Origin: an uncultured Metabacillus sp. | GTDB lineage: Bacteria; Bacillota; Bacilli; Bacillales; Bacillaceae | Assembly: GCF_947503125.1 (NCBI RefSeq) | Contig: NZ_CANNCR010000006.1 | Span: 1-64,000, forward strand | DNA: 64,000 nt | Direction of reading: 5' to 3' | Shown: piece after piece, positions 46,652-64,000 of the stretch | Position numbering within the stretch: the stretch's first letter is position 1 | How the letters are laid out: each line of letters starts with the position of its first letter | Notes under the pieces: model-generated | Databases searched by the model: none | What the model was told of the DNA's origin: nothing | Seen by the model: the letters and a program-made list of their open reading frames with translations, nothing else | Made by a program: the position numbers and the translations under genes

Positions 46652-47884
46652 GTGGGCTATTATGATCAAGATTATGAAAACTATGATGCGAGAAAGCAAA
46701 AAGGAAACCGCGGAGGCTGGTTTTTAGCAGGTTTGGTTGGAGCTGTTATCGGCGTGCTCATTATGTTATTTGCATTTCCTGCTATATCAAATTTTTTACC
46801 TTATAATATGGATTTAGGTGGAGAGGCTACGGAACAGGATGAGACAGGAGAATCAACCGGCCCGGTAAAAAACGTTTCTGTCAATGTGAATACCGCAATA
46901 ACAGACATTGTCAATGAGGTATCAGATGCTGTTGTCGGAGTTGTCAATCTTCAGGAGGCCGGTTTTTGGAATGAGTCCGGACAAACAGAAGAAGCGGAGG
47001 CAGGAACAGGTTCAGGCGTTATTTATAAAAAAGAGGGTAAAAACGCCTTTATTGTTACAAATCACCATGTTATTGCCGGGGCCACACAGATAGAAATCAG
47101 TTTAAGCGACGGAACGAGAATCCCTGCTGAAATTCTGGGCAGTGATGAGTTAACTGATTTAGCGGTTCTTCGTGTAGAAAGTGATAAAATTAAAAAGGTC
47201 GCGCAATTTGGCGACTCTGATCAAGTAAAGCCTGGTGAGCCTGTCATTGCGATTGGTAACCCATTAGGCTTGCAATTTTCAGGATCTGTAACACAAGGGA
47301 TCATCTCAGGGACAGAAAGGGCTGTTCCAATTGATGAAAACGGTGATGGACAGGTAGATTGGAATGCAGAGGTTTTACAAACAGATGCAGCCATTAACCC
47401 TGGAAATAGCGGTGGAGCACTGATTAATATGGATGGGAAAGTAATCGGCATTAATTCCATGAAAATTGCTCAAGAAGCTGTCGAAGGAATTGGTTTAGCG
47501 ATCCCAGCTAACCACGCAATCCCGATTATTGAGGATCTTGAAAAATACAGTGAGGTTAGACGCCCTTATATGGGAATTTCAATGCAATCATTGAATGAGG
47601 TATCTTCTTATCATAAACAGCAAACTTTAAAGCTATCTGATGACATTACAACAGGAATTGTTGTTATGAGCGTTGCTCCAATGTCACCTGCTGCTCAAGC
47701 AGGGCTTCAAGAGCTCGATGTCATTACTGAATTTGCTGGCGAAGAACTAAAAGACGTTATCGAATTAAGGAAAATCCTATATAAGCAAGAAATTGGTGAG
47801 ACCGTCGAGTTCACGTATTATCGTGGAGGAGAAAAGAAAACAGGAAAAATGAGATTAGGCGAACAAGATATGTTAGGGGGCTGA
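46652..47884 (+). CDS. htrC: HtrA-like serine protease HtrC
   Basis: A 410-aa DegP/HtrA protease anchored by one N-terminal transmembrane helix (about 22-44). The trypsin-like domain shows the triad TNHHVI (His about 129), TDLAVL (Asp about 160) and GNSGGAL (Ser about 251). A C-terminal PDZ domain follows (about 300-400). GTG 46652 start; GGTGA lies 6 nt upstream. This is the yyxA/htrC position in B. subtilis. Confidence 0.96.
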   Translation: MGYYDQDYENYDARKQKGNRGGWFLAGLVGAVIGVLIMLFAFPAISNFLPYNMDLGGEATEQDETGESTGPVKNVSVNVNTAITDIVNEVSDAVVGVVNLQEAGFWNESGQTEEAEAGTGSGVIYKKEGKNAFIVTNHHVIAGATQIEISLSDGTRIPAEILGSDELTDLAVLRVESDKIKKVAQFGDSDQVKPGEPVIAIGNPLGLQFSGSVTQGIISGTERAVPIDENGDGQVDWNAEVLQTDAAINPGNSGGALINMDGKVIGINSMKIAQEAVEGIGLAIPANHAIPIIEDLEKYSEVRRPYMGISMQSLNEVSSYHKQQTLKLSDDITTGIVVMSVAPMSPAAQAGLQELDVITEFAGEELKDVIELRKILYKQEIGETVEFTYYRGGEKKTGKMRLGEQDMLGG

Positions 47885-48223: not shown

Positions 48224-48247
48224 CTTTGTTTGAAATGGGGAAGCAGT

Positions 48248-48727
48248 GTGAATATCTCAATTGTGACAATTGGCAAACTAAAAGAAAAATACTTAAAGCA
48301 AGGAATTGATGAATACTTAAAACGCCTTTCAACCTATGCAAAAGTCGATATCATCGAATTGCCTGACGAAAAGGCTCCAGAAAACTTAAGTGAAACAGAA
48401 ATGGAGATCGTAAAGGAAAAAGAAGGAGAACGTATCCTAAATAAAATCAGCGATGACACCCATGTCATTGCCCTTGCGATCGAAGGAAAAATGAAATCCT
48501 CAGAACAGCTCGCAAAAGACCTCGACCAGCTAGCTACATATGGAAAAAGCAAAATAGCGTTTGTCATTGGCGGCTCACTAGGACTAAGCCCCGCTGTTAT
48601 GAAACGAGCAAATGACACCCTTTCGTTTTCTAAGATGACTTTTCCTCATCAATTGATGAGGTTGATTTTATTGGAACAGGTTTATCGGGCGTTTCGGATT
48701 ATTCGGGGGGAACCGTACCATAAATAA
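48248..48727 (+). CDS. rlmH: 23S rRNA m3-pseudouridine-1915 methyltransferase RlmH
   Basis: A 159-aa SPOUT methyltransferase ([18 protein letters not shown] ... FVIGGSLGL ... [11 protein letters not shown]). GTG 48248 gives the family N-terminus. The 3' end encoding EPYHK is intact. It is the B. subtilis yydA and the homologue of staphylococcal orfX, the SCC target. Everything to the right is foreign. The opposite-strand recombinase overlaps its last 60 nt. Confidence 0.97.
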
Positions 48728-50383
48728 AGGTAAACTATTAAGGGACTCAAGCATGTCCCTTTTATATTTACCGTATGATATGGAGCTTGTTGACCAGGTA
48801 TCTAGCTGCTGTTCAAGGTCTGGATAAATCTTTTGCAACAATTCATAGCTATCGGCCATAGCATCGATGGTGAAATCAAAGAAAAGGTTAATCTTTGTAA
48901 TATGACGACCTATCCCACGCTTTGCGTCTAAGCTTATCTGAATATCTTTAATGATGGAGCGGAGCAGTATCTTTTGTTCTTCTGGTTCAACCCGTGAGAG
49001 TAAAACATGAAAATCCCCTAATAATCGTTGTACTGTATCATAATCAATAGGTGAAGTATCGGCTTCGGTTATTTCCGTATTTAACGCTTTCAGGCGTTCC
49101 TCTAGCTGCTTTTTTTGTTCCTGGGAGGAGACTAGCTTTGGTTTAACAATTTCTTGTGGCAGTTCCTCGTCAAGTAGAGCATTCATTAGTTTATCTATAT
49201 GGCCTGTGATTTTATTAACCTTAGACTTTAACAGCCTTATTTCCTCTTGAATGGGCTCCACTGAATGACTTCTCTGCTTATTGGTTTCTGCAATGATTTT
49301 CTTTAATGCTGCTGGGTGTGAGGCAATACTTGATAACTCTTCAAATACATGTTGTTCGGCTTTGTCCGCACGTATTGAATTTGGTCTACATGCTTCTTTG
49401 CCTTTATTATGGTATTGACCACAAGTATAGTAACGATAAGTCTGACCTGCAGCTCCTTTTGAACGGCTCGGAACCATCCCGTGACCGCATACAGGGCATT
49501 TTAATAAGCCACTGAGAATATATGGCTCTTGAGAGCGGGATGGCTTGATAGACCTTTTTTGGCGGATACTCTGCACCTTATCCCATTGTTCTTGAGTAAT
49601 AATTGGTTCATGCTCGCCATCTGCAAGAATAAAGTTCTCATTTTTACCTCTGCGGCGTTTTTCATTCCAATCCTCAACTTGATTGAAGCGTATTTTACCA
49701 ATGTACATTGGATTATCTAATATTTGTTTAATTGCATTAGTAGAGAAAAGTTTATTCCTTTTTGATTTAAACCCTTTTTCATTTATACGATGTGTTATAG
49801 CCTTCAATCCTAATCCTTGTTCAGCAAGATTAAAAATCTCTTTCACGATAATAGCTTCAGTATCATTTATGACCAACTGTTTGTTGACACTATCGTATCC
49901 TAAGCAAAGTCCTCCGTTGAATTTCCCTTGCTTTGCTCGTTCTGTCATCCCCATTTTGACACGGACAACAATCGTGTTACGTTCTAATTCAGCAAACGAG
50001 CTTATCATTTGAAACACCATTTTACCCATAGGAGTCGTCGTATCAAAGTTTTCATTTAAACTCATCAATTGAACATTATTGCGTTCCAGTTCATCGCTAA
50101 TTTCCAAAGCATCCTTCAGTTTTCTTGAAACACGGTCTAATTTATAAACCAGAACGATATCAAATTTTCTATGACGCGCATCAGCTAATAGTTTCTTCAT
50201 TTCAGGACGTCCAGCGATGCTCTTACCACTTACGCCCTCATCAATGTACTCATTAATAACTTCCATGTTCAACAGTTCTGCTTGTCTGTATAGTTCGGAT
50301 AACTGAGCTTTAATGCTGAATCCTTCGGTTGCTTGTTCCTCTGTACTTACACGAGCATATATTACTGCCTTTTTAGTGTTCAT
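48668..50383 (-). CDS. Large serine recombinase (island integrase)
   Basis: A 571-aa large serine recombinase. The catalytic domain begins with YARVSTEEQ (nucleophile Ser13) and has YKLDRVSR and the family helix LERNTI. The recombinase domain spans about 160-280, the zinc ribbon about 295-340 (CPVCGHG ... [12 protein letters not shown]), then a coiled coil (about 375-440). It integrates DNA site-specifically. The last ~20 residues (from about LFMVRF) are read from the antisense strand of rlmH, so the attachment junction lies at or near the gene's 3' end. It is preceded by a coupled 57-aa ORF. Confidence 0.95.
48740..48764 (+). terminator. Hairpin after rlmH
   Basis: AAGGGAC/GTCCCTT with an 8-nt loop, then TTTATATT. 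It lies within the 3' coding end of the recombinase on the other strand. Confidence 0.7.
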
Positions 50384-50553
50384 TCTTTTCCCTCCGTTTC
50401 TATGTGCGTTTTATAATCCTTGTATTTAACACGGTTAATTGCTTGGGAAACCGCGGCTATAAATATTTGTTTGTTATGCTTATCATTGTGTGATTCAATA
50501 GGTAAGCTTTTAAGTCCATTATAAAAAGGTTTTGTTTTCTGCCACATATTCAT
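50380..50553 (-). CDS. 57-aa ORF coupled to the recombinase
   Basis: It begins MNMWQKTKPFYNGLKSLPIE and ends THIETEGKE. Its stop overlaps the recombinase start as ATGA. AAAAGGATG lies about 10 nt upstream of its ATG. The end of the ORF (ACGGAGGGAAAAG) supplies the recombinase's ribosome-binding site. No family recognised. It could help or direct recombination, or simply couple translation; this is inference from position. Confidence 0.6.
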   Translation of the reverse strand: MNMWQKTKPFYNGLKSLPIESHNDKHNKQIFIAAVSQAINRVKYKDYKTHIETEGKE

Positions 50554-50583
50554 AATTTACACATCCTTTTAAAACTTACTTTC

Positions 50584-51141
50584 TTAAGAACTTAACTCTT
50601 TAATATATCTGTTTATATCTTCATTAACTTTAAGACTCCCTTTTAATTCACAAGCGATACTTATAGGTTCTAAGAGCCTTTGGAGGAAGGTATATACTGT
50701 TCCTTGATTTGAGGATGCTGAAATTGCTGTAAGTAGATTAATTTTTTCTTCAACAGAAAACTGATTTGAATCATTAAACAAAGCTGTAGCAATTTTAAAA
50801 GCAGCATCACTAATTTTACTTTCGTCTGTTCCAAGGGGTTGCATCGGTAAATTAGATTTGACCCACTCTTCATACGGAATCCGAATATTATTTTCATGAC
50901 ATGTTTTAACTAAGTCCATTAAAGACTGTCTTAACTGTGCCTGGTACGTTTCGATGATGATATCTTTAATATCCAATTCCAGTGCCTTAGCTAATTTTAA
51001 TGATGCTTCAAATGAAGGAGGATGTTTTTCCTTCTCTATATCGGATATGTGTGCGTGCGAAATACCGGTTTTTTCTGATAGTTGACGGAGACTAAGTCCT
51101 AAATCTGAACGTTTTCTCTTAACTTTTTGCGAAAATGTCAT
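50584..51141 (-). CDS. XRE-family transcriptional regulator
   Basis: A 185-aa protein. The N-terminal HTH_3 domain (about 8-62) reads KRSDLGLSLRQLSEKTGISH-AHISDIEKEKHPPS. The C-terminal ~110 residues are unassigned and helical by appearance. AGAGGTGATT precedes the ATG. It lies between the integrase and the divergent replication-like gene, the usual place of an element repressor. A palindrome at 51241-51256 could be its operator. Confidence 0.9.
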   Translation of the reverse strand: MTFSQKVKRKRSDLGLSLRQLSEKTGISHAHISDIEKEKHPPSFEASLKLAKALELDIKDIIIETYQAQLRQSLMDLVKTCHENNIRIPYEEWVKSNLPMQPLGTDESKISDAAFKIATALFNDSNQFSVEEKINLLTAISASSNQGTVYTFLQRLLEPISIACELKGSLKVNEDINRYIKELSS

Positions 51142-51477
51142 TGTTAATCACCTCTATTCTATTATAAGTGTAAGATTTGTTATTTACAACTATAACACGA
51201 TGTAATAATATATTATTTAGATATTGTAAGATATCTCATTAACAACATGTGTTGTTTGCTATAACATAAGGTATTAGCTGCAATTTAAAATAAGCTGTAT
51301 ACAAGATATCTAGTTTAATCAGGTTTGGAACAAGCTTGTAAGCCAGGAACTAGTTAAGGTCGGTGTGATAAGGTTGCCACTCCTCTAACCGCATACCAAT
51401 AGAGACCTTGAGGAGTAAACTTATATCTTAAGTTAATATAATGCTCCTCTGGTTTTACCAGCTTAGGGGAATTAGCA
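51142..51477. promoter_or_regulatory. Divergent control region of the island
   Basis: 336 bp without an ORF. A perfect inverted repeat AACAACA-TG-TGTTGTT lies at 51241-51256, a likely repressor site. Further right, GAGGAGT (51411-51417) and GCTCCTC (51443-51449) form a long-loop inverted repeat before the next gene. It could also contain the element's origin (inference). Confidence 0.6.
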
Positions 51478-52389
51478 TTGAAATTATCAAAGGCTTGGAA
51501 CACTAAGGTGCAACAATTGCCGCCGTCTGTTGCTATAACGCATTACTATTTGTTTGAACAACACAATGAGATAGGCGATTGCCCGATTGATGGAATCGAG
51601 GTATTGACAGATTCATCTTTAGCGGCAGGATTTTATGAAATTGAGTCTCTCTTTACAAAACAATATATTAAAGCAAACGAGAAGCAGCCATATAAGGTCA
51701 GTTATTCTTTAGGTTGTGTAACAGTTATGCTTGAACCAATATTTACGTGTGTCCCTCCAGTCAAAATAAAGATTAATCCGTCCAAAGGAGGGCTTTCTCC
51801 AAAACAGTTATATGAATGGTGTAAATTTTTAGTAACTGACGTGAAACGAATATTTGTAAAAAAGGTAGATACAAAGTTAGATTTCTTTGGTCTTGACCCA
51901 TATGAGTGCATGAACATAATATAGTGGTGTTCGGATTTTAGAAAGATTGATGAAGAGTATTTTAATAAAGGTACCCTTTATCTAGGAAGTGCTCATAGCA
52001 AAGTAAGGATTCGTATATATGACAAAGGGAAAGAGCAGGGGCAAAGCATTGTTTGGACAAGGGTAGAGACTACACGGTCATATGATAAAGAAGAACAGAT
52101 GACTTTAATTTCTTTTTTAAATGGAGTATCGGAAATTAAGCTATTTGAAGATGTTATCATTGTGAATGCTGCAACAAAAGATATAAATGATATCCTAAGA
52201 CAGTATAATGTTCAAGTAATTAACAATGGTAAGTATTCAATGATAATGACATTAAAACAGTTAGATGTTCGTAAAAGAAACCGAGTAATACGTATTTTAG
52301 ATAATTTAGGTTTCGTTAATTCCTTATTACCACAATATCAAGATGCCATATTAAAATGGAGAAGGCAGGACAACGAAACTTTTTTATAA
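51478..52389 (+). pseudogene. Rep_trans-like initiator/relaxase with in-frame amber stop
   Basis: The 303-codon frame is open from TTG 51478 (AGGGGA upstream) to 52389 except for one TAG at 51922-51924 (codon 149). The part after the stop, starting WCSDFRKID, contains YLGSAHSKVRIRIYDKGK and WTRVETTRS, the pattern of Rep_trans initiators and of NicK-type relaxases of ICEs. Both halves fit one protein, and codon 149 is probably a mutated CAG. So the gene is likely broken, or read through. The 3' half has an internal ATG at 52099. Confidence 0.82.
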
Positions 52390-52653
52390 TAGGTGTTACA
52401 AAACCAACATTTTCATAGGATTATATATAGATGTAATGACTTTAATATAACAGTAAGTGAATAAAAAGTGGGCGAAATCAAGGATAAACGTAGATGTAAA
52501 GGGGAGCTATCAATAAATATTAACTATACAACCAATTAGATGAAATTGACAATTCTACTGTCTTTTACAAATCTACCAGATAGTGAGATGTAGTAATAGA
52601 ATCCCTTTTAGTTCCATATAATGTATTATCATATGCTAGGAGGGGCTATTATT

Positions 52654-52875
52654 ATGTTAAAGGTTGGACAAACTGTTAGGCATAGAATGGAAGGTTATAA
52701 GGGGAAAATCGATATTATCTATGATTCGAACGAATATGAAAGTAATAAGGTACATAAAGATATTTGCGTGGTTAGAGTTCCAGGAGAAATTCTTCCTAAG
52801 CATGTCCATTCTAGTGAATTGATGCACGATGGAAGGACTCCAAGATGTCATAGTAAGAAATGCAGAAAATTGTAA
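52654..52875 (+). CDS. Uncharacterised 73-aa protein
   Basis: Starts MLKVGQTVRHRMEGYKGKID and ends with a basic Cys/His tail, RCHSKKCRKL. AGGAGGGG lies 8 nt before ATG 52654. The VGQTVRH...GYKGKI...VVRVPGE pattern could be a small beta-barrel (SH3/KOW-like), which is inference only. A TATAAT lies at 52617-52622. The preceding gap 52390-52653 has no other feature I recognise. Confidence 0.6.
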   Translation: MLKVGQTVRHRMEGYKGKIDIIYDSNEYESNKVHKDICVVRVPGEILPKHVHSSELMHDGRTPRCHSKKCRKL

Positions 52876-52947
52876 AAGGTACTTATAATTATAAAAGGAT
52901 AGGGACCAACAATAAGTCAGTCCCCATTTTAACCCTTTCTTAAAATT

Positions 52948-53553
52948 TTATAGGTATCCTTTTTCTTTTAAACTAATATATTTTTCATGTCCAATTATTA
53001 GGTGGTCAAGAATTTCGATGCCCACAACCTTTCCAACTTCGGCAAGACGTTTGGTAACCTCTATATCTTCACGACTTGGTTCAGGTTGCCCACTTGGATG
53101 ATTATGAGCCACTATGGCACTGGCACAACTGCGACGAATTAAACATTTGAACGTCTCGCGGGGATGCACAATCGAAGCATTTAAAGAACCGACAAAGACC
53201 GTTTCGCGAAACAGTACCTCATTTTTCGTATTAAGGCCTAAGCAAACGAATTCTTCCCTATTTAGGTATTGCATGTCTTTTAAATAGCGATAACCATCTT
53301 CAGGGCTTCTAATTGCAAAACGAGTCTCCATTGGAGTTGGATTCATACGAGCTAGTTTTAAGGCGGATATAATTTGTTGGGCTTTAACCTTGCCAATCCC
53401 TTTGATTTGCATGAGTTCTTCTTCTGTTACTTCAAGTAATTCCTGAATGGACGGAAAGCGGCTGAAAATCTCATTTACAACATATCCATCTTCTTTTTCT
53501 CTGATTGTAGCAGCCAGTAAAATTTTAAATGTGTATTTATCAAAAGTATTCAT
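52948..53553 (-). CDS. RadC family JAB-domain protein
   Basis: A 201-aa protein. A helix-hairpin-helix region (about 45-75, TEEELMQIKGIGKVKAQQI) is followed by the JAB1/MPN domain with the complete JAMM motif HNHPSGQPEPSRED (about 148-161; His-x-His-x10-Asp). ATG 53553 is preferred, with GGAGGAAT upstream. Island copies of RadC-like proteins are common in mobile elements; their function is not settled. It is distinct from the chromosomal radC, which lies near mreB in Bacillus. Confidence 0.9.
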   Translation of the reverse strand: MNTFDKYTFKILLAATIREKEDGYVVNEIFSRFPSIQELLEVTEEELMQIKGIGKVKAQQIISALKLARMNPTPMETRFAIRSPEDGYRYLKDMQYLNREEFVCLGLNTKNEVLFRETVFVGSLNASIVHPRETFKCLIRRSCASAIVAHNHPSGQPEPSREDIEVTKRLAEVGKVVGIEILDHLIIGHEKYISLKEKGYL

Positions 53554-53735
53554 ATAATATTCCTCCAGTTTTTTGAAATAAAAAAGGAGAGACAAATGTC
53601 CCTCCAATTGATTGAAATAGATTTTTTCTGTATGATGTTTATAAGGTGATTATTGGTGAGTTCGTAAATTGAGCTCATCTTTTTTTGTGCATTAAAAAAG
53701 CCCCTAGAATGCTGGTTGCACTCAAAGAGCTTCAT
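53550..53735 (-). CDS. Possible 61-aa ORF before the RadC-like gene
   Basis: It begins MKLFECNQHSRGFFNAQKKM. Its stop overlaps the RadC-like start as ATGA. Its own start overlaps the stop of a 9-codon ORF (53735 region) that follows a perfect AAGGAGGTGA site. This could be a translation-coupled chain, or chance. No family recognised. Confidence 0.3.
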   Translation of the reverse strand: MKLFECNQHSRGFFNAQKKMSSIYELTNNHLINIIQKKSISINWRDICLSFFISKNWRNII

Positions 53736-53774
53736 GGGTTAGTTTTATAGCTAATGTTCATTTGATTCACCTCC

Positions 53775-54500
53775 TTAGGGCTGTTCCTTAAGTAGCAATA
53801 GGTCCTGGATAAAAGATGATGCTTGTTGTTTTGTTAGCATTGTACTATGCTCCACGTTGTATTGCATCCTCATTAGTTCCCTTGCAACCTCAGGAAGCAT
53901 GTTGATTTCTTTAACTGTTCTAAAAATCATTTGTAGCTGCCTTTCAGTGACTGGTTCATCACCTCCTTTAATTGAGGCTGACTTTGGTAAGTCCTCAATA
54001 TCCTGTGTAAATATCCCACTAGCTCTAGTTGCTGATAGTACTGCATCAATTAATGCACGTTTCTTTGCCATCTTTAGAAGTGTATTGATTACGCTGAATG
54101 GGTCTTGGTTAATATACGCTTTCTCTTTGTTGTTACATGTTCCGATTCCTTCAGCCTCCATTAGACCTGTTTGCTTACTAATAAGAGTGACCTTTACCTC
54201 ATATGCAAATATCCCTTTCTCCCAGTTCTCAATACGATTTATGATGCTTACTTGTTTGGAGAAACCAAATATGTCACATAACTTTTCTGCCCCAGGTTTA
54301 AGTAATGTTGGCTTATCAAAGCCCTCAATCTGCCCATAGTCAATTCCTTCTGTCATGAATTCTTTTACAAATTGTTCTAGCATGTTGATTCTAACTTTCG
54401 CTTCTTGTAATGAGATTGCTAGACTAGGAACAATTGCGATTTGCTCATTTTTCCCTGACATTGGAATTACATTGCGAAGTTTTCCTATTGTATCCTTCAC
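53775..54500 (-). CDS. Phage/ICE-type protein, possible ssDNA recombination role
   Basis: A 241-aa protein. Conserved-looking segments are FMTEGIDYGQIEGFDKPTLL (about 49-68), KPGAEKLCDIFGF and NTLLKMAKKRALIDAVLSAT (about 140-160). I remember this pattern from phage and integrative element proteins near recombination genes but cannot name a family with certainty. GTG 54500 start with AAAAGGAGTG. It follows a small, apparently frameshifted gene by 21 bp on the same strand and precedes the RadC-like gene. Confidence 0.65.
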   Translation of the reverse strand: MKDTIGKLRNVIPMSGKNEQIAIVPSLAISLQEAKVRINMLEQFVKEFMTEGIDYGQIEGFDKPTLLKPGAEKLCDIFGFSKQVSIINRIENWEKGIFAYEVKVTLISKQTGLMEAEGIGTCNNKEKAYINQDPFSVINTLLKMAKKRALIDAVLSATRASGIFTQDIEDLPKSASIKGGDEPVTERQLQMIFRTVKEINMLPEVARELMRMQYNVEHSTMLTKQQASSFIQDLLLLKEQP

Positions 54501-54521
54501 TATTGCTTCACTCCTTTTTAA

Positions 54522-54772
54522 TTACGATTCTCGTAAGTTACTGCTTCTTTCAAAAAATGAGACTGGAATTTCCAGTTCATCATCACGACAGTAGTATTTA
54601 AACCTCTCAAGTTTTATTTCAAGCTCTTCTAAACTTCGAATTGTACATTTAATACCAAGGCACCATAGACCTTTGATATGGGTATCTTTTACCGGCATTG
54701 AGCCAAGAACCCTGACCATTCACCTCTTTCAGTAATGACATTTTCCACTGTGTCCTTGTGCAGTTGTCTCAT
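54522..54772 (-). pseudogene. Small gene split by a frameshift (probable)
   Basis: A frame starting at ATG 54772 behind a perfect AAAGGAGGTGA site reads MRQLHKDTVENVITERGEWS-GFLAQCR and stops at 54689. A second frame (to 54522) reads on as GSMPVKDTHIKGLWCLGIKC, TIRSLEELEIKLERFKYY. Joined around 54695-54705 they give one ~83-aa protein of a kind I recall from phage and ICEs. The downstream frame lacks a well-spaced ribosome-binding site of its own. So one gene with a single-base deletion is likely. Confidence 0.6.
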
Positions 54773-55143
54773 TTTTTTCACCTCCTTTGTTTTTGGATGC
54801 CTCTCACCATCCTAGTCATCCCTGTAGTACAAAAAGACCTAATCCATATTGGAAGAGGTCAATTAAAAAGGGGTGGGGCACCGAACGGGAACAAAAACAA
54901 TTATAGTTATGCCTAGCACCCCAAGAAATTTTATATCATTTTTTTCGAGTTTATAGGTTCATGACAATTACGCGAAGCGCGGATATGCTAATATTGAGAG
55001 GAAATATTTGGTCTTTCTAAAGGGATTTACAAGACAGTTGTCGAATTTTTGTTTAGGTATTTTGAAATCCAGACAAATAATTATGTTTTTAAATCAAATA
55101 AAAGGTAAAAAGCTCATGGCTATTTTTATATGGAGGTAATAAA
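54773..55143. other. Island intergenic region with hairpin
   Basis: 371 bp without an ORF, separating the minus-strand genes from the Gabija pair. On the minus strand 54826-54856 forms GACCTCTTCC/GGATTAGGTC followed by TTTTTG, a terminator-like hairpin in the leader of the small gene (possible attenuator). GGGGTGC...GCACC pairing lies near 54880-54930. No clear sigma-A promoter for the next gene was found. Confidence 0.5.
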
Positions 55144-57072
55144 ATGTTTTTGAAAGAAGTAAGTATTAATAATTTTAGAAGCCTAAAAAAAGTTGTCCTA
55201 CCGCTATCGAAAAATACAATATTAATCGGGGAAAATAACTCTGGAAAAACTGCATTTTTAGATGCAATCAAATTAGGCCTTGGACGTTCAAACCGTCGGA
55301 TTTCTCCTTTTAATGAATACGACTATTTTGTAGATAATGAGAAAGATACACCACAAAATTCTGAAGGTATTACTATTGAGTTTAAGTTTATGGAAGATAA
55401 ACCAAATCAATGGGGGGAAAAAATCCCACAAATATTAGGTGAAATAGTACAACCAATGATGTGGGAGGAAGACCCAGAGGAAGCAATTAATATGATTTGG
55501 TTAAGAGTATGCTCAAAATATAGTGAAGAACAAAATGATTATATAATTGAAACACAGTTTTTAAACATTAATGGGGAACCTCTTTCTGCAAGAGCTTCTA
55601 ATAGTAAATATAATGATTTTTTACAATTAACACCGGTATTTTATTTGCAAGCCCTTCGTGATATACAGGACTCTTTTAGTGCAAACTCACCATTTTGGGG
55701 TAGATTTTTAAAAAAAATAAATATACCGAAGGAAAAACTGGAACAAATTCAAGAAAGTTTATCAAACATAAATGAAGAATTAATCAAAAGCGACTCTAAT
55801 CTAGAAGGAATGATAAAGTCGCTTGAAAATATACATAATGTCCTATCCATGAACAGCAAGGAAGTTGTTTCAATTAATGCACTTCCAATGAAGACATGGG
55901 ATATTCTTTCAAAAGCTCAGGTGGTTATGAAAGGAAAGGGAAGTAATGCAAATTTTCCTTTAGATAGACATGGGCAAGGAACTCAAAGCTTAGCCACTTT
56001 ATTTTTGTTTCAAGCTTATATAGAGGTTTTATTAGAAACAACATTCTCTAAGGAGACAGAAGCAATATTAACTTTAGAAGAACCAGAAGCTCATTTACAT
56101 CCCCAGGCTAGTCGGTCATTATTTAAAAAGATTAAAAATATTGATTGTCAAAAAATTATCTCTACACATTCTCCTTATTTTGTTCAAAATATGGATTTAA
56201 TGGATTTAAGATTATTTCGGAAAAAAGGTGCAGAAACCACTGTTCACTTTTTAAGAGATTCCGTAACTGCTAGAGTGCTGGCAAATGGTAGTTTACAGAA
56301 ATTTGTTGCTTCTAAAGGTGGGAAATTTAGTTATGATGAGTCTACAAGCAAGTTGGTGGCGTATGAGCCTATAAATGAAAATGAACAAAGAGGCCTTTTA
56401 GGAATGTACAGGGATTCGGACTTTAGTGAAATTATTGAAAAGTTTATTGAGGATTCTCAATTAATTATAACTGATAAAGAAAGAAAAGATTTAAATACAT
56501 TTGTTCAAAGAACTCGTGGAGAATTGTTTTTTGCTAGGGGCTGGTTATTAGCTGAGGGACAAACAGAGTACATATTGATGCAGTATTTTGCAGAAGTAAT
56601 AGGACTTCCTCTAGATGACTATGGTATAAGTATAATTGATTTTCAAAATAATGGTTCACCAGGTGCATTTATTAAATTGGCCAAGTTACTAGAGTTTCCT
56701 TGGTATTTAATCTCGGATAATGATGACCAAGGGAAAAGTACAATATCTCAAATAGAAAAGATAGGTTTTAGTAAGGAAAAAATTAATGAATTAGTGGCTT
56801 TGTTGCCTCGAGTTGATTTTGAAACATATCTAGCATATGAAGGGTTTTTAGAAGAGTATGAAATAATAGCAACTGAAAATGGATATAATATACCTAAAGA
56901 CCAGTTAGGTATCATAGACAGGGACGAATTAGCAGAAATTATTAAGAAAGATAAAGTTGGAAATGCCTACAGGTTAGTTGAACTACTAAAAGAGAGGGAT
57001 TTCAATAAGGAAAGAGTACCTGAACTAATCAAGGAGCTTATTGAAAGGTGTGTGAGTGTATCAAATGAATAA
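55144..57072 (+). CDS. gajA: OLD-family ATPase-nuclease, GajA-like
   Basis: A 642-aa protein with an N-terminal ABC-type ATPase and a C-terminal TOPRIM nuclease. Walker A is GENNSGKTAFLDA (about 29-41); DRHGQGTQSLATL serves as signature (about 275-290); Walker B is LTLEEPEAHLHPQ (about 310); the H-loop is STHSPYF. TOPRIM motifs are LLAEGQTEYI (about 475) and LISDNDDQGK (about 525). Paired with a UvrD-like helicase, this is the Gabija defence architecture. It is longer than the GajA I remember from B. cereus (578 aa). GGAGGTAA precedes the ATG. Confidence 0.88.
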   Translation: MFLKEVSINNFRSLKKVVLPLSKNTILIGENNSGKTAFLDAIKLGLGRSNRRISPFNEYDYFVDNEKDTPQNSEGITIEFKFMEDKPNQWGEKIPQILGEIVQPMMWEEDPEEAINMIWLRVCSKYSEEQNDYIIETQFLNINGEPLSARASNSKYNDFLQLTPVFYLQALRDIQDSFSANSPFWGRFLKKINIPKEKLEQIQESLSNINEELIKSDSNLEGMIKSLENIHNVLSMNSKEVVSINALPMKTWDILSKAQVVMKGKGSNANFPLDRHGQGTQSLATLFLFQAYIEVLLETTFSKETEAILTLEEPEAHLHPQASRSLFKKIKNIDCQKIISTHSPYFVQNMDLMDLRLFRKKGAETTVHFLRDSVTARVLANGSLQKFVASKGGKFSYDESTSKLVAYEPINENEQRGLLGMYRDSDFSEIIEKFIEDSQLIITDKERKDLNTFVQRTRGELFFARGWLLAEGQTEYILMQYFAEVIGLPLDDYGISIIDFQNNGSPGAFIKLAKLLEFPWYLISDNDDQGKSTISQIEKIGFSKEKINELVALLPRVDFETYLAYEGFLEEYEIIATENGYNIPKDQLGIIDRDELAEIIKKDKVGNAYRLVELLKERDFNKERVPELIKELIERCVSVSNE

Positions 57073-58984
57073 TGAAATTCAAAGTGAGTTCAACCGATTA
57101 ACATTAATACAGAAACAAGCCGTTGATTGGGATAAAGGACCTTTAGTAGTTATAGCAGGCCCTGGTTCAGGTAAAACTAAGGTATTAACTTTAAGGATTG
57201 CAAGACTATTAGAACAATCCATGGAAGAGAGTTATAGAATATTAGGATTAACTTTTACTAATAAAGCTGCTGATGAAATGAGAGCTCGGATAAAAGAATT
57301 AGTTACAGATGTGGACAATAGATTATTTTTAGGGACATTCCACAGTTTTTGTGCAGAAGTGCTTAGAAACCATGGTTCACACGTAGGTGTTAATCCAGAT
57401 TTTACAATTTACTCTGATACAAAGGATTTAAATGAAATACTTACCGAAGTAAAATCCAGGCTTGAAAAAGATAATATTATTGAACCTATAGGGGTAACTA
57501 ATCTTTTACCTATAATACAATATTTACAAAGGAATCTTCTTGAGCCAAACCAATCTCTTAATACACTCATTAAGAATACAAATTTAAGAAATGCGGTTGA
57601 ACATATATATGTAGACTATTGGGAGAAGCTGAAGGAACTAAATGCCCTTGATTTTGATTCATTAATTTTTAAGACATATATGTTATTTAAGAAGTTTCCT
57701 TTTATTGCAAAACATTATCGAACGATTTACCCTTATATCTCAATAGATGAATTTCAAGACACAAATTTTGCACAGTATCAAATGATTAAGCAACTTACTA
57801 AAGATAAACACAATAATTTGTTTATCGTAGCAGACGATGACCAACTTATTTACCAATGGAATGGTGCAAGTCATAAAAGGCTTCAAGAATTTAAAGAGGA
57901 CTATGGAGCAGATTTAATACAACTCACCGATAATTTTAGGTGTCCATCTATAGTTGTGGAAGTAGCAAATAACCTAATTAAACATAATAAAGGACGCTTA
58001 AACAGTAAAGAGCCTATACGTGCTACAAAAGATGTTGAAGAAAATTCAGATGTATTACGATTAGAGAGCTTTTATACCTTTGAAGATGAAGTTGAATGGA
58101 TAGTGAATGATATTAAGGAACGAAAGGCAGCTAACCAAGAAGGTACATCATATTCAGTGATAGCTCGTTCCAATAAGCTATTAAATGCAGTCTATGAAAA
58201 ATTAAAAAGTAACGAAGTACCTGTGGTTATATCAAAAAGAAAAAATGAATTTGAGAGTCCTCTATTGTATTGGATGCATAGTTTACTACGACTAGCCAAT
58301 AAGAGAAATGATACAAGATATTTAAATGAAGTGGTGAGCTCCTTTGAATTTTTCACAAAATTTCACATTGATATTGAGGAAATTATAGCTTGGAGTGATT
58401 CAAGGGATGGAGACTATCTAAAGGGATTTTATAACTGTATAACACCCTTTGATATAGAAAAACAATTTTTAGAGACCTTTAGACTAGATTTAGTTGAGGG
58501 GAAGAGCTTTATTGATTTTATCGAACAATCAATGAACTGGCTAGAAAAACGAATTGATAATACTGACGAGGAACTTAAACTTCTATATGATGAAGAACGT
58601 GAAGTATGGAATCAATTTATGGGGAACTTTTATTATAAGTATGGAAACACCCCTGTTACTTTAAGCACATTTTTACAAGAATTAGATTTATCTTCTAAAC
58701 AGAAAGAGCCTGATTTAAGTTATGTACAATGTTTAACCATTCATTCGGCTAAGGGTAAGGAATTTAATCATGTTTATTTATTAGGTTTAGTTGAAGATGA
58801 ACTTCCATCATATATGAGTAAGAAAAAGGGGAATAACAGTCTAGAAATTGAAGAAGAAAGACGTGGCTGTTTTGTAGCTATTACAAGAACAGTTGAGACT
58901 CTCACATTAACTTTTTCTGAAAGATACAATGGTTGGTCAAAAGAACCATCAAGATTTTTAAAAGAAATGGGTGTTTTAAAATAG
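57056..58984 (+). CDS. gajB: UvrD/PcrA-like helicase, GajB-like
   Basis: A 642-aa superfamily 1A helicase. Motif I is VVIAGPGSGKTKVL, Ia is LTFTNKAADEMRARI, II is DEFQDTNFAQY, III is ADDDQLIYQWNGA, IV is DNFRCP, V is TIHSAKGKEFNHVYL and VI is VAITRTVETL. GTG 57056 fits AAAGGTG 5 nt away and overlaps gajA by 17 nt. In Gabija, GajB is proposed to sense DNA ends and activate GajA. It is longer than the B. cereus GajB (494 aa, from memory). A terminator overlaps its stop. Confidence 0.88.
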   Translation: MYQMNNEIQSEFNRLTLIQKQAVDWDKGPLVVIAGPGSGKTKVLTLRIARLLEQSMEESYRILGLTFTNKAADEMRARIKELVTDVDNRLFLGTFHSFCAEVLRNHGSHVGVNPDFTIYSDTKDLNEILTEVKSRLEKDNIIEPIGVTNLLPIIQYLQRNLLEPNQSLNTLIKNTNLRNAVEHIYVDYWEKLKELNALDFDSLIFKTYMLFKKFPFIAKHYRTIYPYISIDEFQDTNFAQYQMIKQLTKDKHNNLFIVADDDQLIYQWNGASHKRLQEFKEDYGADLIQLTDNFRCPSIVVEVANNLIKHNKGRLNSKEPIRATKDVEENSDVLRLESFYTFEDEVEWIVNDIKERKAANQEGTSYSVIARSNKLLNAVYEKLKSNEVPVVISKRKNEFESPLLYWMHSLLRLANKRNDTRYLNEVVSSFEFFTKFHIDIEEIIAWSDSRDGDYLKGFYNCITPFDIEKQFLETFRLDLVEGKSFIDFIEQSMNWLEKRIDNTDEELKLLYDEEREVWNQFMGNFYYKYGNTPVTLSTFLQELDLSSKQKEPDLSYVQCLTIHSAKGKEFNHVYLLGLVEDELPSYMSKKKGNNSLEIEEERRGCFVAITRTVETLTLTFSERYNGWSKEPSRFLKEMGVLK

Positions 58985-59012
58985 GTAGTCATTACTTGCT
59001 GCCTATTTTTTT
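58979..59012 (+). terminator. gajAB terminator
   Basis: ATAGGTAG/CTGCCTAT (8 bp, one G-U) with a 10-nt loop, then TTTTTTT. Overlaps the gajB stop. Confidence 0.85.
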
Positions 59013-59038
59013 GGTATATAAATTCCAATTGAGCCCAT

Positions 59039-59068
59039 TTACTTATATAATCTAATTAACAGTATAAT
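59039..59068 (+). promoter_or_regulatory. Candidate hsd operon promoter
   Basis: TTACTT (59039-59044), 18 bp, TATAAT (59063-59068), about 38 bp upstream of hsdR. Confidence 0.5.
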
Positions 59069-59106
59069 GTTGTGGGTTTATTTTTTTCGAATGGGGTGAT
59101 GAACTA

Positions 59107-61458
59107 ATGAATAAGAGAGAGTTATCAGAACGTGATATATGTTCAAAATATATTACGCCTGCTCTAACTGAAGCGGGATGGGACCTTCAAAAACAAATTA
59201 GAGAAGAAGTTACATTTACAGATGGTAGAATTATTGTTCGAAAGAAAATGGTCACAAGAGGAGAACGGAAAAGGGCCGATTACATCTTATATTATAAGCC
59301 TAATTTACCTATTGCAATTATTGAGGCAAAAGATAACAAACACAGTATTGGTTCGGGAATGCAACAGGCATTAAACTATGCTGAGATTTTAGATATCCCA
59401 TTTGTATTCTCCTCTAATGGTGATGGCTTCCTTGAACATGATAGAACAAAAGATTCAGGCAAAATAGAGCAAGAACTTTCCCTAGCAGAGTTCCCTTCAC
59501 CTGAAGAGTTATGGAAACGGTATAAACAATGGAAAGGTATAGACCAAGGAGCCGAAGAAACAATTACTCAGGATTATTACTTTGACCAAGGTGGAAAAAG
59601 TCCACGTTATTATCAACGCATCGCTATAAATAGAACTGTAGAGGCAATTGCTACTGGTCAAGATAGAATATTATTGGTTATGGCGACTGGAACTGGAAAG
59701 ACATATACTGCTTTTCAAATTATATATAGACTATGGAAGTCCAAATCTAAGCGACGAATTTTATTCCTTGCTGATAGAAATATATTGGTTGACCAAACAA
59801 TGGCAAATGATTTCAAACATTTTGGCGATAAAATGACAAAGATAAAAAATAGAAATATTGATAAAGCACATGAGATTTATTTAGCCTTATACCAAGGGAT
59901 ATCAGGAAAAGAAGAACTGAAAAATGTGTATAAAGAGTTTTCTAGGGATTTTTTTGACCTTATTGTAGTAGACGAGTGTCACCGTGGAAGTGCCAAAGAG
60001 GAATCGGCTTGGCGTGAAATTTTAGAATACTTTAAGCCTGCAACTCAAATAGGGCTAACTGCTACACCAAAAGAGACAAAAGAAGTTTCTAATATAGAGT
60101 ATTTTGGTGACCCATTATATACTTATTCATTGAAGCAAGGCATAGAGGATGGTTTTTTGGCCCCATATAAAGTCATCAGAGTATCGATTGATAAGGATAT
60201 AGACGGATATAGGCCAACAAAAGGGAAAACCGATAAACATGGGCAGATAATTGAGGATAGGGAATATAACATTAAAGATTATGATAAAAATCTTGTTTTA
60301 GAAAAAAGAACAGAGCTTGTTGCTAAAGTTGTTTCTGATTACTTGAAAAAGAATAAAAGTCGTTTTGCTAAAACAATATTCTTCTGTGTAGATATTGACC
60401 ATGCAGAGCGTATGAGACAGGCATTAGTAAACGAAAATGCTGATTTAGTATCAAGTAATCCTAAATATGTTATGCGAATTACGGGTGACAATGAAGAAGG
60501 AAAAGCAGAATTAGATAATTTCATTGACCCTGCTTCTACCTATCCTGTTTTAGTTACAACAAGTAAGTTAATGACAACGGGTGTAGATGCACAAACATGC
60601 CAGTATATCGTCTTGGATTCTAATATTTCAAGTATGATTGAATTTAAGCAAATTGTTGGTCGTGGTACTCGTATTAGAGAGGATTACGGAAAACAGTATT
60701 TCACAATTATTGATTTTAGAGGAGTTACTAAATTATTTGCTGATAAAGAGTTCGATGGGGAACCTGAAAATATTAAAACAACAGGCGGAAATATACCACC
60801 AGAAGATGATGAAAATCCTGGTGGAGATGAAGGTAGTGATGATGGAGGAACCACTGGTGGAGGAACAGGAACTGGTGGAGGAGTAATTATAGAGCCAAGG
60901 GCAAAGTATTACATTAATGATGTTGAAGTAAAAGTTCTTAATCAGAGAGTACAGTATTATGATAAGGATGGTAAATTAATTACGGAATCCCTGGTAGACT
61001 ATACTAAGAAAAACGTAAAAAAAGAGTTTACTACCTTGGATAGTTTTTTAAATCGGTGGAATTCCGCGGAAAAGAAAGAAGCCTTATTAACAGAACTTCA
61101 GGAACAGGGCATACTCTTTGAAGAATTAAAAGAAGAGGTCGGAAAAGATTTAGACCCATTTGATTTAATATGCCATATTGCATTTGATATGCCTGCTCTT
61201 ACTAGAAAAGAAAGAGCAAATAATGTAAAAAAGCGTAATTACTTTACTAAATATGGTGAAGGAGCTAGAACTGTACTAGAGACATTACTTGCAAAGTATG
61301 CTGATGAAGGTTTAGAAAACTTAGAAAGTCTTGAAGTATTAAAGCTTCCAGATTTACAAAAGTACGGTTCACCACTTGAGATAGTTAAGAAGTTTGGTGG
61401 AAAAAAGCAATTTTTACAAGCGATTAAAGAACTAGAAAATGAAATTTATACTGCCTAG
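59107..61458 (+). CDS. hsdR: Type I restriction enzyme, R subunit
   Basis: A 783-aa translocase-nuclease. The N-terminal PD-(D/E)xK nuclease has RADYILYY and AIIEAKDNK (about 58-78). The SF2 ATPase has [12 protein letters not shown] (about 190), VVDECHRGS (about 297), GLTATPKET and [12 protein letters not shown] (about 520). A Gly/Asp/Thr-rich linker (about 570-595) separates a C-terminal domain that binds HsdM. It resembles the EcoEI group. First gene of hsdR-hsdM-hsdS. Confidence 0.96.
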
Positions 61459-61479
61459 AATTGAGAGGAGAAATATGAT

Positions 61480-62907
61480 ATGTCTATATCATCTGTAATT
61501 AAGTCAGTACAAGATATTATGAGGAAAGATGCTGGTGTTGATGGTGACGCACAGCGGATTTCCCAGTTAGTTTGGATGGTGTTCTTAAAAGTATTTGATG
61601 CTAAAGAGGAAGAATGGGAGCTACTGTATGACGATTATGAGCCAATTGTTCCAGAGGACTTAAAATGGAGAAATTGGGCTGCAAATGAAGAAGGGATTAC
61701 TGGGGATGAGTTACTAGACTTTGTAAATAACAAACTCTTTAAGGAACTTAAAGAAATGGAACTCGATGAGAATAGTAGTCCAAAAGCATTTATCGTTAGG
61801 GCAGTTTTTGAGGACTCATATAATTACATGAAATCTGGTACTCTTATGAGACAAGTAATAAATAAATTAAATGAAATAGATTTTACCTCACAAAAAGACA
61901 GGCATATGTTTAATGATATATATGAAACTATATTGAAGGACCTTCAAAGTGCTGGGAATTCAGGGGAATATTACACTCCACGACCAGTTACACAGTTCAT
62001 TGTTGATATGGTAAACCCTCAACTTGGTGAAAAAGTTTTAGATTTTGCCTGTGGCACAGGAGGATATCTAACAAGCTCATTGGAACATTTAAGAAAACAG
62101 ATTAAAAGTGTTGAAGATAATCGTATACTACAAGAAACAATTATGGGGATTGAGAAAAAACAGTTACCTCATCTCCTAGCAGTAACTAATATGATTCTTC
62201 ATGATATAGATGTTCCAAACATAAGGCATGATAATTCATTAACAAAGAATGTTAGGGATTACAAGCCTTCAGAAAAAGTCGATGTTATTGTTACCAATCC
62301 TCCATTTGGTGGAATAGAAGAAGATGGTATTGAAATAAATTTTCCACAACAATTCAGAACTAAAGAAACAGCTGACCTTTTTATTGTATTACTTATGTAT
62401 CTATTAAAAGAAAATGGTAGAGCAGGAATTGTTCTTCCTGATGGATTTTTGTTTAGTGAGGGTATCAAAACTACAATAAAGCAAAAGCTTTTAGAAGAAT
62501 TTAATTTGCACACTATCGTTAGACTACCAAAAGGAGTTTTCTCTCCTTATACAGACATCAATACCAACTTACTATTTTTAGAAAAAGGTAAATCAACTAC
62601 TGAAACCTGGTTCTTTGAGCACCCACTACCAAAAGGATATAAAAATTATACGAAGACCAAACCAATAAGATATGAAGAGTTTGCGTTAGAAAAAGAGTGG
62701 TGGAAAAAGAGAGAAGAAAATGAATTTGCATGGAAAGTCTCAATTGATGAAATAAAGAAAAATAATTATAACTTAGATTTTAAACATCCAAATAAACAAG
62801 ATGATGAAGAAATAAAAGATACTAAAGAATTATTTATGGATTTATTAAAGCTGCAAAAACAGTCGCTTGGACTTTTAGAAGATATGCAAAAGGATTTAGG
62901 ATTATGA
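61480..62907 (+). CDS. hsdM: Type I restriction system methylase, M subunit
   Basis: A 475-aa N6-adenine methyltransferase. An N-terminal helical domain (1-140) is followed by the SAM motif DFACGTGGYL (about 187-196) and the catalytic NPPFG (motif IV, about 271). It starts 21 bp after hsdR (GAGAGGAG site) and overlaps hsdS as ATGA. Methylates the host target to protect it and forms M2S with HsdS. Confidence 0.97.
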   Translation: MSISSVIKSVQDIMRKDAGVDGDAQRISQLVWMVFLKVFDAKEEEWELLYDDYEPIVPEDLKWRNWAANEEGITGDELLDFVNNKLFKELKEMELDENSSPKAFIVRAVFEDSYNYMKSGTLMRQVINKLNEIDFTSQKDRHMFNDIYETILKDLQSAGNSGEYYTPRPVTQFIVDMVNPQLGEKVLDFACGTGGYLTSSLEHLRKQIKSVEDNRILQETIMGIEKKQLPHLLAVTNMILHDIDVPNIRHDNSLTKNVRDYKPSEKVDVIVTNPPFGGIEEDGIEINFPQQFRTKETADLFIVLLMYLLKENGRAGIVLPDGFLFSEGIKTTIKQKLLEEFNLHTIVRLPKGVFSPYTDINTNLLFLEKGKSTTETWFFEHPLPKGYKNYTKTKPIRYEEFALEKEWWKKREENEFAWKVSIDEIKKNNYNLDFKHPNKQDDEEIKDTKELFMDLLKLQKQSLGLLEDMQKDLGL

Positions 62908-64000
62908 GAAAATTTTTAATTGGAGATATTTTAACAAGGGTGAAAGATGTTGTATTAATTGAAGATGATAAGCAGTATAAAAGGGTAACAATAAGATTAT
63001 ATCATCAAGGTGTAAATTTACGAGATATTGAAAAAGGTGAAAATATAGGTACAAAGAGGCAATACTTGGTAAAACCAGGTCAATTTATAATGTCGAGAAT
63101 TGATGCTCGAAATGGGGCTTTTGGAATTATACCAGAAGAGCTAAATGATGCAATAATAACAAATGATTTTTTGACTTTTAAGGTAAATAGTGAAGTTGTT
63201 AATATTGAATATTTTAACCTACTTTCCAAAACAAAAGATTTTCTTTCTTATTGTATAAATGGTAGTACAGGAACTACTAATCGAAAAAGATTAAAGGAAG
63301 ATTTATTTCTTAATTTTGAGATTGAGCTACCAAGTAAAGAAGAGCAAGATTCCATCATTCACAAATATAATAATATAAGTACTAAACATAGATTACTTAG
63401 TGAAAACTTCAGGGAACAAAAAATATTACTGGAGAGACTAAGAACAAGTTATAAAATAGACGCTATAAATGGTAAGTATACTAAAAAAGGTGAAAGCCAT
63501 GAATCCTCGATAGGTCTTCTAGAAGAGATTAAGAAAGAAAAAAATAGATTAATTGAGAGTGGAACAATAAAAAAGGAAAAACCTCTTCTACCAATTGAAA
63601 TCAGTGAGCAAGAATATGACCTACCAGAAGGATGGACTTATGCAAGATTAGGTGATTTATTAAACCCTATTAATGGTAAGGCTTTTAAGCCCTCTGATTG
63701 GTCTGAAGAAGGATTGCCAATAATTAGAATACAAAATTTAAATAATCCAGATGCACCTTTTAACAGATGTAATTTTTCAGTGGATTCCAAGTATCATGTT
63801 AAGAAGGGTGATTTATTAATAGGATGGTCTGGAACACCAGGTACATCATTTGGTGCATTTATCTGGGATAGGGAAGATGCTCTATTAAATCAGCATATAT
63901 TTAAAGGTGTTATATATGGTGATTTAGTTGACAAATACTTTATGCAATATGCAATAAATTCAAAGTTAAATGAGATGATATCTAAAGCTCATGGTGGAGT
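62904..64000 (+). CDS. hsdS: Type I restriction system specificity subunit (partial)
   Basis: At least 365 codons, open through the window end. The first target recognition domain (about 1-155; TRVKDVV, PGQFIMSRIDARNGAFG) and a coiled-coil conserved region (about 160-235, EEQDSIIHKYN) are followed by a second domain starting LPEGWTYARLGDLLNPINGK. The ATG overlaps the hsdM stop. The 3' end is missing because of the window edge. Recognises the two halves of a bipartite DNA target. Confidence 0.93.
   Translation, partial: MRKFLIGDILTRVKDVVLIEDDKQYKRVTIRLYHQGVNLRDIEKGENIGTKRQYLVKPGQFIMSRIDARNGAFGIIPEELNDAIITNDFLTFKVNSEVVNIEYFNLLSKTKDFLSYCINGSTGTTNRKRLKEDLFLNFEIELPSKEEQDSIIHKYNNISTKHRLLSENFREQKILLERLRTSYKIDAINGKYTKKGESHESSIGLLEEIKKEKNRLIESGTIKKEKPLLPIEISEQEYDLPEGWTYARLGDLLNPINGKAFKPSDWSEEGLPIIRIQNLNNPDAPFNRCNFSVDSKYHVKKGDLLIGWSGTPGTSFGAFIWDREDALLNQHIFKGVIYGDLVDKYFMQYAINSKLNEMISKAHGG

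Follow-up and report, generated by a model that had tools for sequence, protein, structure and literature searches.

What occupies the 3′ end of rlmH in an uncultured Metabacillus sp., and how is it related to the staphylococcal cassette chromosome (SCC), the vehicle of methicillin resistance in staphylococci, which uses the same gene end? We studied the first 64,000 bases (hereafter the window) of contig C6 (NZ_CANNCR010000006.1; 176,515 bases) in a draft genome of 5.44 Mb and 244 contigs. At the rlmH end, an initial annotation had described a mobile, defence-carrying, SCC-like island with a large serine recombinase, an XRE regulator, a Rep-type gene, phage-type genes, a Gabija pair and a type I restriction-modification (R-M) operon. 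All of these genes are present, and the island character is borne out by a repeat at the far end and by variable presence in relatives. The element, 15,585 bp counted from GA to GA, is very probably a site-specific cassette related to staphylococcal SCC; its exchangeable cargo consists of Gabija and type I R-M. It is flanked by two GA-centred rlmH-end sites, and its backbone is common to elements of other genera. Genomes and loci are denoted below by G and L numbers where they have to be told apart.

Boundaries and attachment sites

A repeat of the rlmH codons for EPYHK plus stop had been predicted past position 64,000. The 14-mer GAACCGTACCATAA of the rlmH end (48710-48723) indeed recurs in the same direction at contig position 64295, outside the window and 95 bases beyond hsdS, and, as in SCC, the insertion at the 3′ end of rlmH lies between direct repeats. 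The chance expectation of such a repeat is about 6e-5 (one strand, 17.2 kb), and a chance repeat was rejected on this figure. With up to four mismatches allowed, the 18-base core had no further site on either strand between positions 47,001 and 90,000. The target gene, rlmH, is single-copy in the source genome.

Joined in the predicted circle, the two ends form an attP of two mirrored arms about GA, with ACCGTA, approximately ten bases and a GGTAAA-type motif; a central GA inside a dyad attP would be a further SCC feature. Over 28 bases per arm, a chosen extent rather than a measured site, 14-21 of 28 positions mirror each other in six related elements (clade A, see below) versus 7.5-8.2 when 28-mers are drawn at random from the same element, whereas the arms of attB, the rlmH site, lack such mirroring (5-10 of 28). 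The left arm of attR, AACGTTACGGT followed by GAACC, is the same in all six clade A right ends found, the window element included, among 17 clade A elements.

The Ccr-related recombinase would join attP of the circle to the last rlmH codons (attB) at GA, and the crossover would swap these codons for the element's own EPYHK-stop copy. The last codons of the present rlmH thus probably come from the element, and the gene would stay intact because the right arm of attP rebuilds EPYHK and the stop, while the original end would be displaced to form the right half of attR. The Rep_trans protein, broken in the window copy, might replicate or mobilise the circle, and the cassette could be retained because its defence genes are of benefit.

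The recombinase and its family of elements

The 3′ end of the recombinase gene overlaps rlmH by 60 bp on the opposite strand. Among NCBIfam models, the protein best matches CcrB (372 bits) and CcrC (316 bits), in both cases under the cut-off of 900; it is homologous to the ccrA/ccrB or ccrC products that define SCC and is not a named allotype. Its residues 1-487 show 34.7% identity to a staphylococcal recombinase. In a phylogenetic tree built from 54 recombinases, a branch with 99/96 support sets it, its Bacillales relatives and CcrB of Staphylococcus epidermidis apart from the phage and plasmid recombinases used. By these comparisons, the window recombinase and staphylococcal Ccr are distantly related.

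A scan of named genomes yielded nine loci with recombinase relatives, and further, overlapping searches covered 21 genomes of the genus, 80 of the family and 397 of the order. The tree places the window recombinase in clade A (16 rows, 100/99), next to clade B (22 rows, 100/100), whose elements often carry a second recombinase behind the first. At the cut-off used, clade A occurs in 12 of the 397 genomes of the order. Most clade A elements share a backbone of recombinase, XRE, Rep_trans, RadC and the protein encoded at 53775; the last two are missing from G413, and in some others no XRE or Rep was detected. The protein encoded at 53775 is present in 22 of the 397 genomes (E 1e-30), 10 of which have a clade A recombinase. 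The backbone of the element in Cytobacillus sp. NCCP-133 (L007) is 84-98% identical to that in the window, versus only 81% identity of RlmH, and an SNF2-type protein stands there at the position of Gabija.

The cargo of the window element comprises two predicted anti-phage systems, which appear to be exchangeable: Gabija, with adjacent gajA and gajB whose open reading frames (ORFs) overlap by 17 bp, and type I R-M, with hsdR, hsdM and hsdS together. R-M proteins were found in the cargo of all seven clade A relatives examined, of type I in G261, G142, G137 and G149, type II in G180, type III in G216 and a type IIG-like kind in G278; in this survey, 26 of the 44 listed ORFs were run through PADLOC, and G149 and G216 had no right end found. 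In this family of non-staphylococcal cassette chromosomes, one anti-phage system takes the place of another while the backbone stays fairly constant; the window element has a single recombinase, which should be easy to work with.

Distribution in congeners

The sequence that follows rlmH was read over 15.8-40 kb in each of 20 congeners, with a match defined as E 1e-8 over at least 40% of the length. XRE, the Rep pieces, the proteins encoded at 52621 and 53775, GajA, GajB, HsdR, HsdM and HsdS were absent from these regions in all 20, and the expectation that relatives would lack the island holds for its cargo, though no clean empty rlmH site was found. G008 and G011 have RadC-like matches of approximately 55%; recombinase relatives (27-44%) were found in G003, G008, G011, G013, G015 and G017, with a partial one in G006. 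In G015 and G003, an adjacent recombinase pair lies at rlmH. The initial annotation had stressed the single recombinase without a ccrA/ccrB pair; this is true of the window element, but staphylococcal SCCs with a single recombinase (CcrC) are on record (PMC10061031), and these two congeners do have a pair.

Beyond the element, the conserved gene order returns as foreseen: SDR-MQO-68949-DUF421-AhpF-AhpC lies at 66.6-73 kb here and 7-16 kb after rlmH in G016, the closest congener (RlmH 96%).

The regions read in the 20 congeners total 709,885 bases. Beyond rlmH, they contain 20 extra copies of a degenerate att core on the rlmH strand, spread over 10 of the 20 genomes; the opposite strand has no such copy, and ten first-order Markov simulations produced none. 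Tandem cores are found, for example, in L037 (G001), L036 (G014), L039 (G007) and L052 (G004); congeners thus seem to harbour composite islands like those of staphylococci. In six of the ten tandem-core genomes, a recombinase relative is missing at E 1e-40, so that trans-mobilised or decayed cassettes are possible. In L034 (G003), rlmH has a frame shift just ahead of EPYHK, which is either a real change or a draft error.

Alternative explanations

Several observations weigh against a mobile cassette. A clean empty site was not found in the 20 congeners, and in G016 several kb of other DNA follow rlmH. The block at 64.4-66.6 kb, that is, the 2.1 kb right of attR, lies beside rlmH in no congener read, and the first gene right of attR has a homologue elsewhere in the genomes of G016 and G014. 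For 11 of the 17 clade A elements, no right end was found within 10.6-19.6 kb of sequence, and no excised circle was seen. Furthermore, the Rep gene, intact in relatives, is broken in the window copy, and the left attP arm of the window element is the weakest of the six, with 23 of 2000 random 28-mers equally good.

The last two points belong to the alternative with most in its favour, to which we give somewhat less than an even chance, namely, that the element is an immobile relic in the source strain. The Rep gene is interrupted by a stop, and its pieces have no Pfam match, while the intact proteins of L007 and L006 match Rep_trans with 27.5 and 33.0 bits (cut-off 29.6). The left attP arm deviates from the family motif AGGGTAAA, with mirroring at 14 of 28 positions versus 18-21 in the other five clade A elements. 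Because the Rep gene is broken and the arm weakened, the window copy may be on its way to losing mobility. A relic is harder to reconcile with the recombinase ORF, which is intact and 91-95% identical to its two nearest relatives, and with the GA centres and inner arms, which are intact at both ends.

The initial annotation had also suggested that different recombinases came to use the rlmH end independently. Clades A and B do differ in backbone, arm motif (GGTAAA versus GGCAAA) and recombinase number. They nevertheless share the GA centre and similar ACCGT inner arms, and clades A, B and C lie with Staphylococcus CcrB on one side of the 99/96 branch. Recruitment of rlmH by unrelated recombinases was rejected on this tree, a verdict that is not conclusive because the tree has a midpoint root and several long branches, CcrB among them. 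Independent use is not supported, because the window recombinase is related, though distantly, to staphylococcal Ccr; we consider it unlikely, and common descent of the rlmH specificity would be the simpler reading.

Less likely still is a defective prophage, phage satellite or remnant of an integrative and conjugative element (ICE). XRE, RadC, Rep_trans and the PHROG protein all occur in phages and ICEs, and phage integrases of the same superfamily exist; yet no structural, packaging or conjugation gene was recognised among the 11 genes, the recombinase is nearer to Ccr than to the phage recombinases used, and the site is an rlmH end with a GA centre. Finally, a fixed chromosomal region of core genes of the genus with a chance repeat, to which a G+C content only slightly under that of the neighbouring core would be suited (approximately 0.30-0.39 versus 0.35-0.40), has next to no probability given the rarity of such repeats, the same arm at the right ends of five other elements and the Cytobacillus backbone that is closer than RlmH, and was rejected on the absence of the cargo beside rlmH in all 20 congeners.

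A recombinase frame that crosses its own insertion site

In the site-specific cassette proposed here, the recombinase frame runs across the junction. Read antisense, the right arm and core of attP encode the recombinase end ...LPLFMVRF; the following codon lies beyond the crossover point, ahead of which the gene lacks a stop codon. In the integrated state, the frame enters antisense rlmH and stops there. In the circle, it would run through the other attP arm and end there or just beyond. As this stop codon lies in the far arm, insertion would remove it, and we infer that insertion swaps the stop codon and C-terminal tail of the recombinase for antisense rlmH.

Of 38 recombinases in clades A and B, 36 have an ORF that extends across the crossover point. 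In clade A, 14 of 16 do so, the exceptions being G278, whose frame stops earlier, and G151, which is out of frame; in clade B, all 22 cross, and the gene behind the core is not rlmH in G084, G109 and G190. The 38 omit partial or cut sequences (L010, L012, L013, G006, G032 and G162), the second recombinases of pairs, the internal type and the class C rows G076 and G013, which cross the site in another frame.

In clade A, antisense rlmH adds tails of 2 to 62 residues. The predicted circle tail is TVTL(D/N/V)RV(N/K), with the stop at the outer arm edge, in five of six clade A elements (G261 based on the attR arm alone), and TVTLDRVEKSNFLEI for the window recombinase. Clade B examples have TVVI or SVLF before the stop in the circle frame; the pairings in G084 and G006 (more distant core) give other tails and may be wrong pairings.

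Use of the same frame in two clades would favour selection on the tail. Against it, integrated recombinases have tails of freely varying length; the arms, moreover, are under constraint at the DNA level, and conserved arm sequences hence do not prove that the tail is selected. In an AlphaFold2 model (22 sequences, mean predicted local distance difference test score (pLDDT) 72.7, predicted template modelling score 0.40), residues 524-571 have pLDDT below 50, which weakly disfavours a folded role for the tail. In the titles, abstract openings and passages of the open-access literature searched, we found no description of a large serine recombinase ORF that runs through attP. Such an ORF offers a direct test of whether the C-terminal tail of a serine recombinase reports the integration state.

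Two other junctions were noted. In L012 (Bacillus sp. V3-13), the recombinase end shares 87% identity with that in the window and passes the att core into non-rlmH sequence, in a junction that resembles a tandem array or a circle-like one; the recombinase gene is cut by the contig end. In L140 (G109), approximately 5 kb from rlmH, two opposed large serine recombinases have adjoining ends, one of them at an att core.

A subclade with its own rlmH

Six clade A elements carry a second rlmH: G451 (L119), G261 (L120), G236 (L121), G151 (L147), Paraliobacillus L008 and Cytobacillus kochii L011. They form one branch of the tree (100/99) and therefore represent one evolutionary event, not six. The element-borne gene, located between the left-end genes and RadC and 3.3-5.1 kb from the recombinase end, encodes a protein 57-61% identical to that in the window and ends in EPYHK. 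The host rlmH ends in EPYIF or EPYLV types in five of the six and is broken in G151, and in Escherichia coli RlmH the equivalent residues Y152, H153 and R154 are reported to be essential (PMC5430550). By contrast, the 28 other elements with enough sequence (11 of clade A, 16 of clade B and one of class C) all have EPYHK or EPYHR, and none of them has a second rlmH; the window element likewise keeps EPYHK and lacks a second rlmH. The parts of the literature that our search returned hold no description of a second, element-borne rlmH. This subclade could serve as a natural test of whether damage to a target gene, together with its replacement, stabilises a cassette.

Taking both features together, the changed tail might be a built-in sensor of the integration state that lowers recombination after insertion, and the sister subclade might replace the catalytic end of rlmH, with the cassette taking over a host function. 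We regard this as a doubtful, speculative extension.

Comparison with known systems

According to the parts of the published accounts drawn on here, islands at the rlmH end with large serine recombinases, tandem copies and R-M cargo are already known outside staphylococci (PMC10061031, PMC6222049, PMC10581047). With staphylococcal SCC, the window element shares the rlmH 3′ end, a Ccr-related recombinase, R-M cargo, tandem insertions (in its relatives) and the GA centre, the central dinucleotide that CcrAB reportedly requires (PMC10581047). It differs in that its recombinase scores under the CcrA, CcrB and CcrC cut-offs, lies at the element edge and has an ORF through the site. It also has a Rep_trans gene in place of the SCC-type helicase locus: no helicase/Pol/SSB locus of that type was seen, and no cch/COG3378/DUF927 helicase is among the Pfam matches of the element proteins, a part of which was also covered by NCBIfam. 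Because of the recombinase scores and the lack of a visible SCC-type helicase, we call the element SCC-like rather than SCC in the strict sense.

The Enterococcus cassette chromosome is described as a variable cargo inserted at rlmH by large serine recombinases, with inverted repeats in attR and in the circular site, all as here, but it has a ccrAB pair, and only those two genes are conserved (PMC6222049). The Bacillales rlmH-end islands in PMC10061031 have one or two large serine recombinases, form composite tandem islands, carry R-M cargo and had their second end located via the last ~12 bp of rlmH; they are, however, defined by Pol-SSB-helicase genes, which were not found in the window element. 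The text passages of that paper, its supplementary maps aside, make no mention of a recombinase ORF through att or of an element-borne rlmH.

The ccrDE island SbCI of S. brunensis reportedly has its own target-gene homologue, which may complement the truncated rimL, like the own-rlmH subclade, but its target is rimL, its recombinases are the ccrDE pair, and the window element has no second copy of its target (PMC10581047). In the archaeal pTN3, attP lies inside the integrase gene and integration likewise rewrites the recombinase gene; there, a tyrosine recombinase gene is disrupted on integration, whereas here only the last residues would change and the domains are kept (PMC5495485).

Gene content and neighbouring features

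Features of the element and its target are listed in Table 1. Neither Pfam nor PHROG gave a match for the small conserved ORF at 52621, and for the protein encoded at 53775, PHROG 10048 is the only identification from these two databases.

Table 1. Coordinates of rlmH, the attachment sites and the genes of the element (window positions; attR in contig positions)
Feature	Position	Strand	Remarks
rlmH, 23S rRNA pseudouridine methyltransferase, target gene	48230-48727	+	PF02590, E 9.2e-60
Large serine recombinase, Ccr-related, 571 residues	48668-50383	-	Resolvase, Recombinase and Zn_ribbon_recom domains
attL	48682-48739	+	left half rlmH (attB), centre GA 48710-48711, right half attP arm
Terminator-like hairpin for rlmH, within the recombinase coding end	48740-48761	+	weak candidate
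XRE-type regulator	50584-51141	-	PF01381, E 7.8e-12; 98% identical in L007
Rep_trans-type replication initiator/relaxase gene, broken	51478-52389	+	in-frame TAG at 51922-51924
Small conserved ORF	52621-52875	+	94% identical in L007; 53% over part in L005
RadC-family protein	52948-53607	-	PF04002, E 7.1e-43; 70-93% in clade A relatives
Phage-type backbone protein	53775-54500	-	PHROG 10048
GajA, Gabija ATPase/TOPRIM nuclease	55144-57072	+	PADLOC 733 bits; AAA_15, OLD-like TOPRIM
GajB, Gabija UvrD-like helicase	57056-58984	+	PADLOC 829 bits
HsdR, type I restriction subunit, EcoAI type	59107-61458	+	NCBIfam NF046051, 1224 bits (cut-off 550)
HsdM, type I methyltransferase subunit	61480-62907	+	PADLOC 709 bits; N6_Mtase, HsdM_N
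HsdS, specificity subunit	62904-64199	+	runs past the window end at 64,000
attR	64267-64324		beyond the window; centre GA 64295-64296, left half attP arm, right half displaced rlmH end

The hairpin at the recombinase coding end is a tentative terminator for rlmH, given that three terminator-like sites were found versus 1.9 expected from shuffles; it is retained in the relatives L005, L006, L007, L010, L012 and L013.

Right of the element, a urease cluster (contig 73566-78523; L002 13566-18523) lies between AhpC and an SNF2-type gene. UreA and UreC have no match in the regions downstream of rlmH in the 20 congeners, including G016, which has both AhpC and SNF2.

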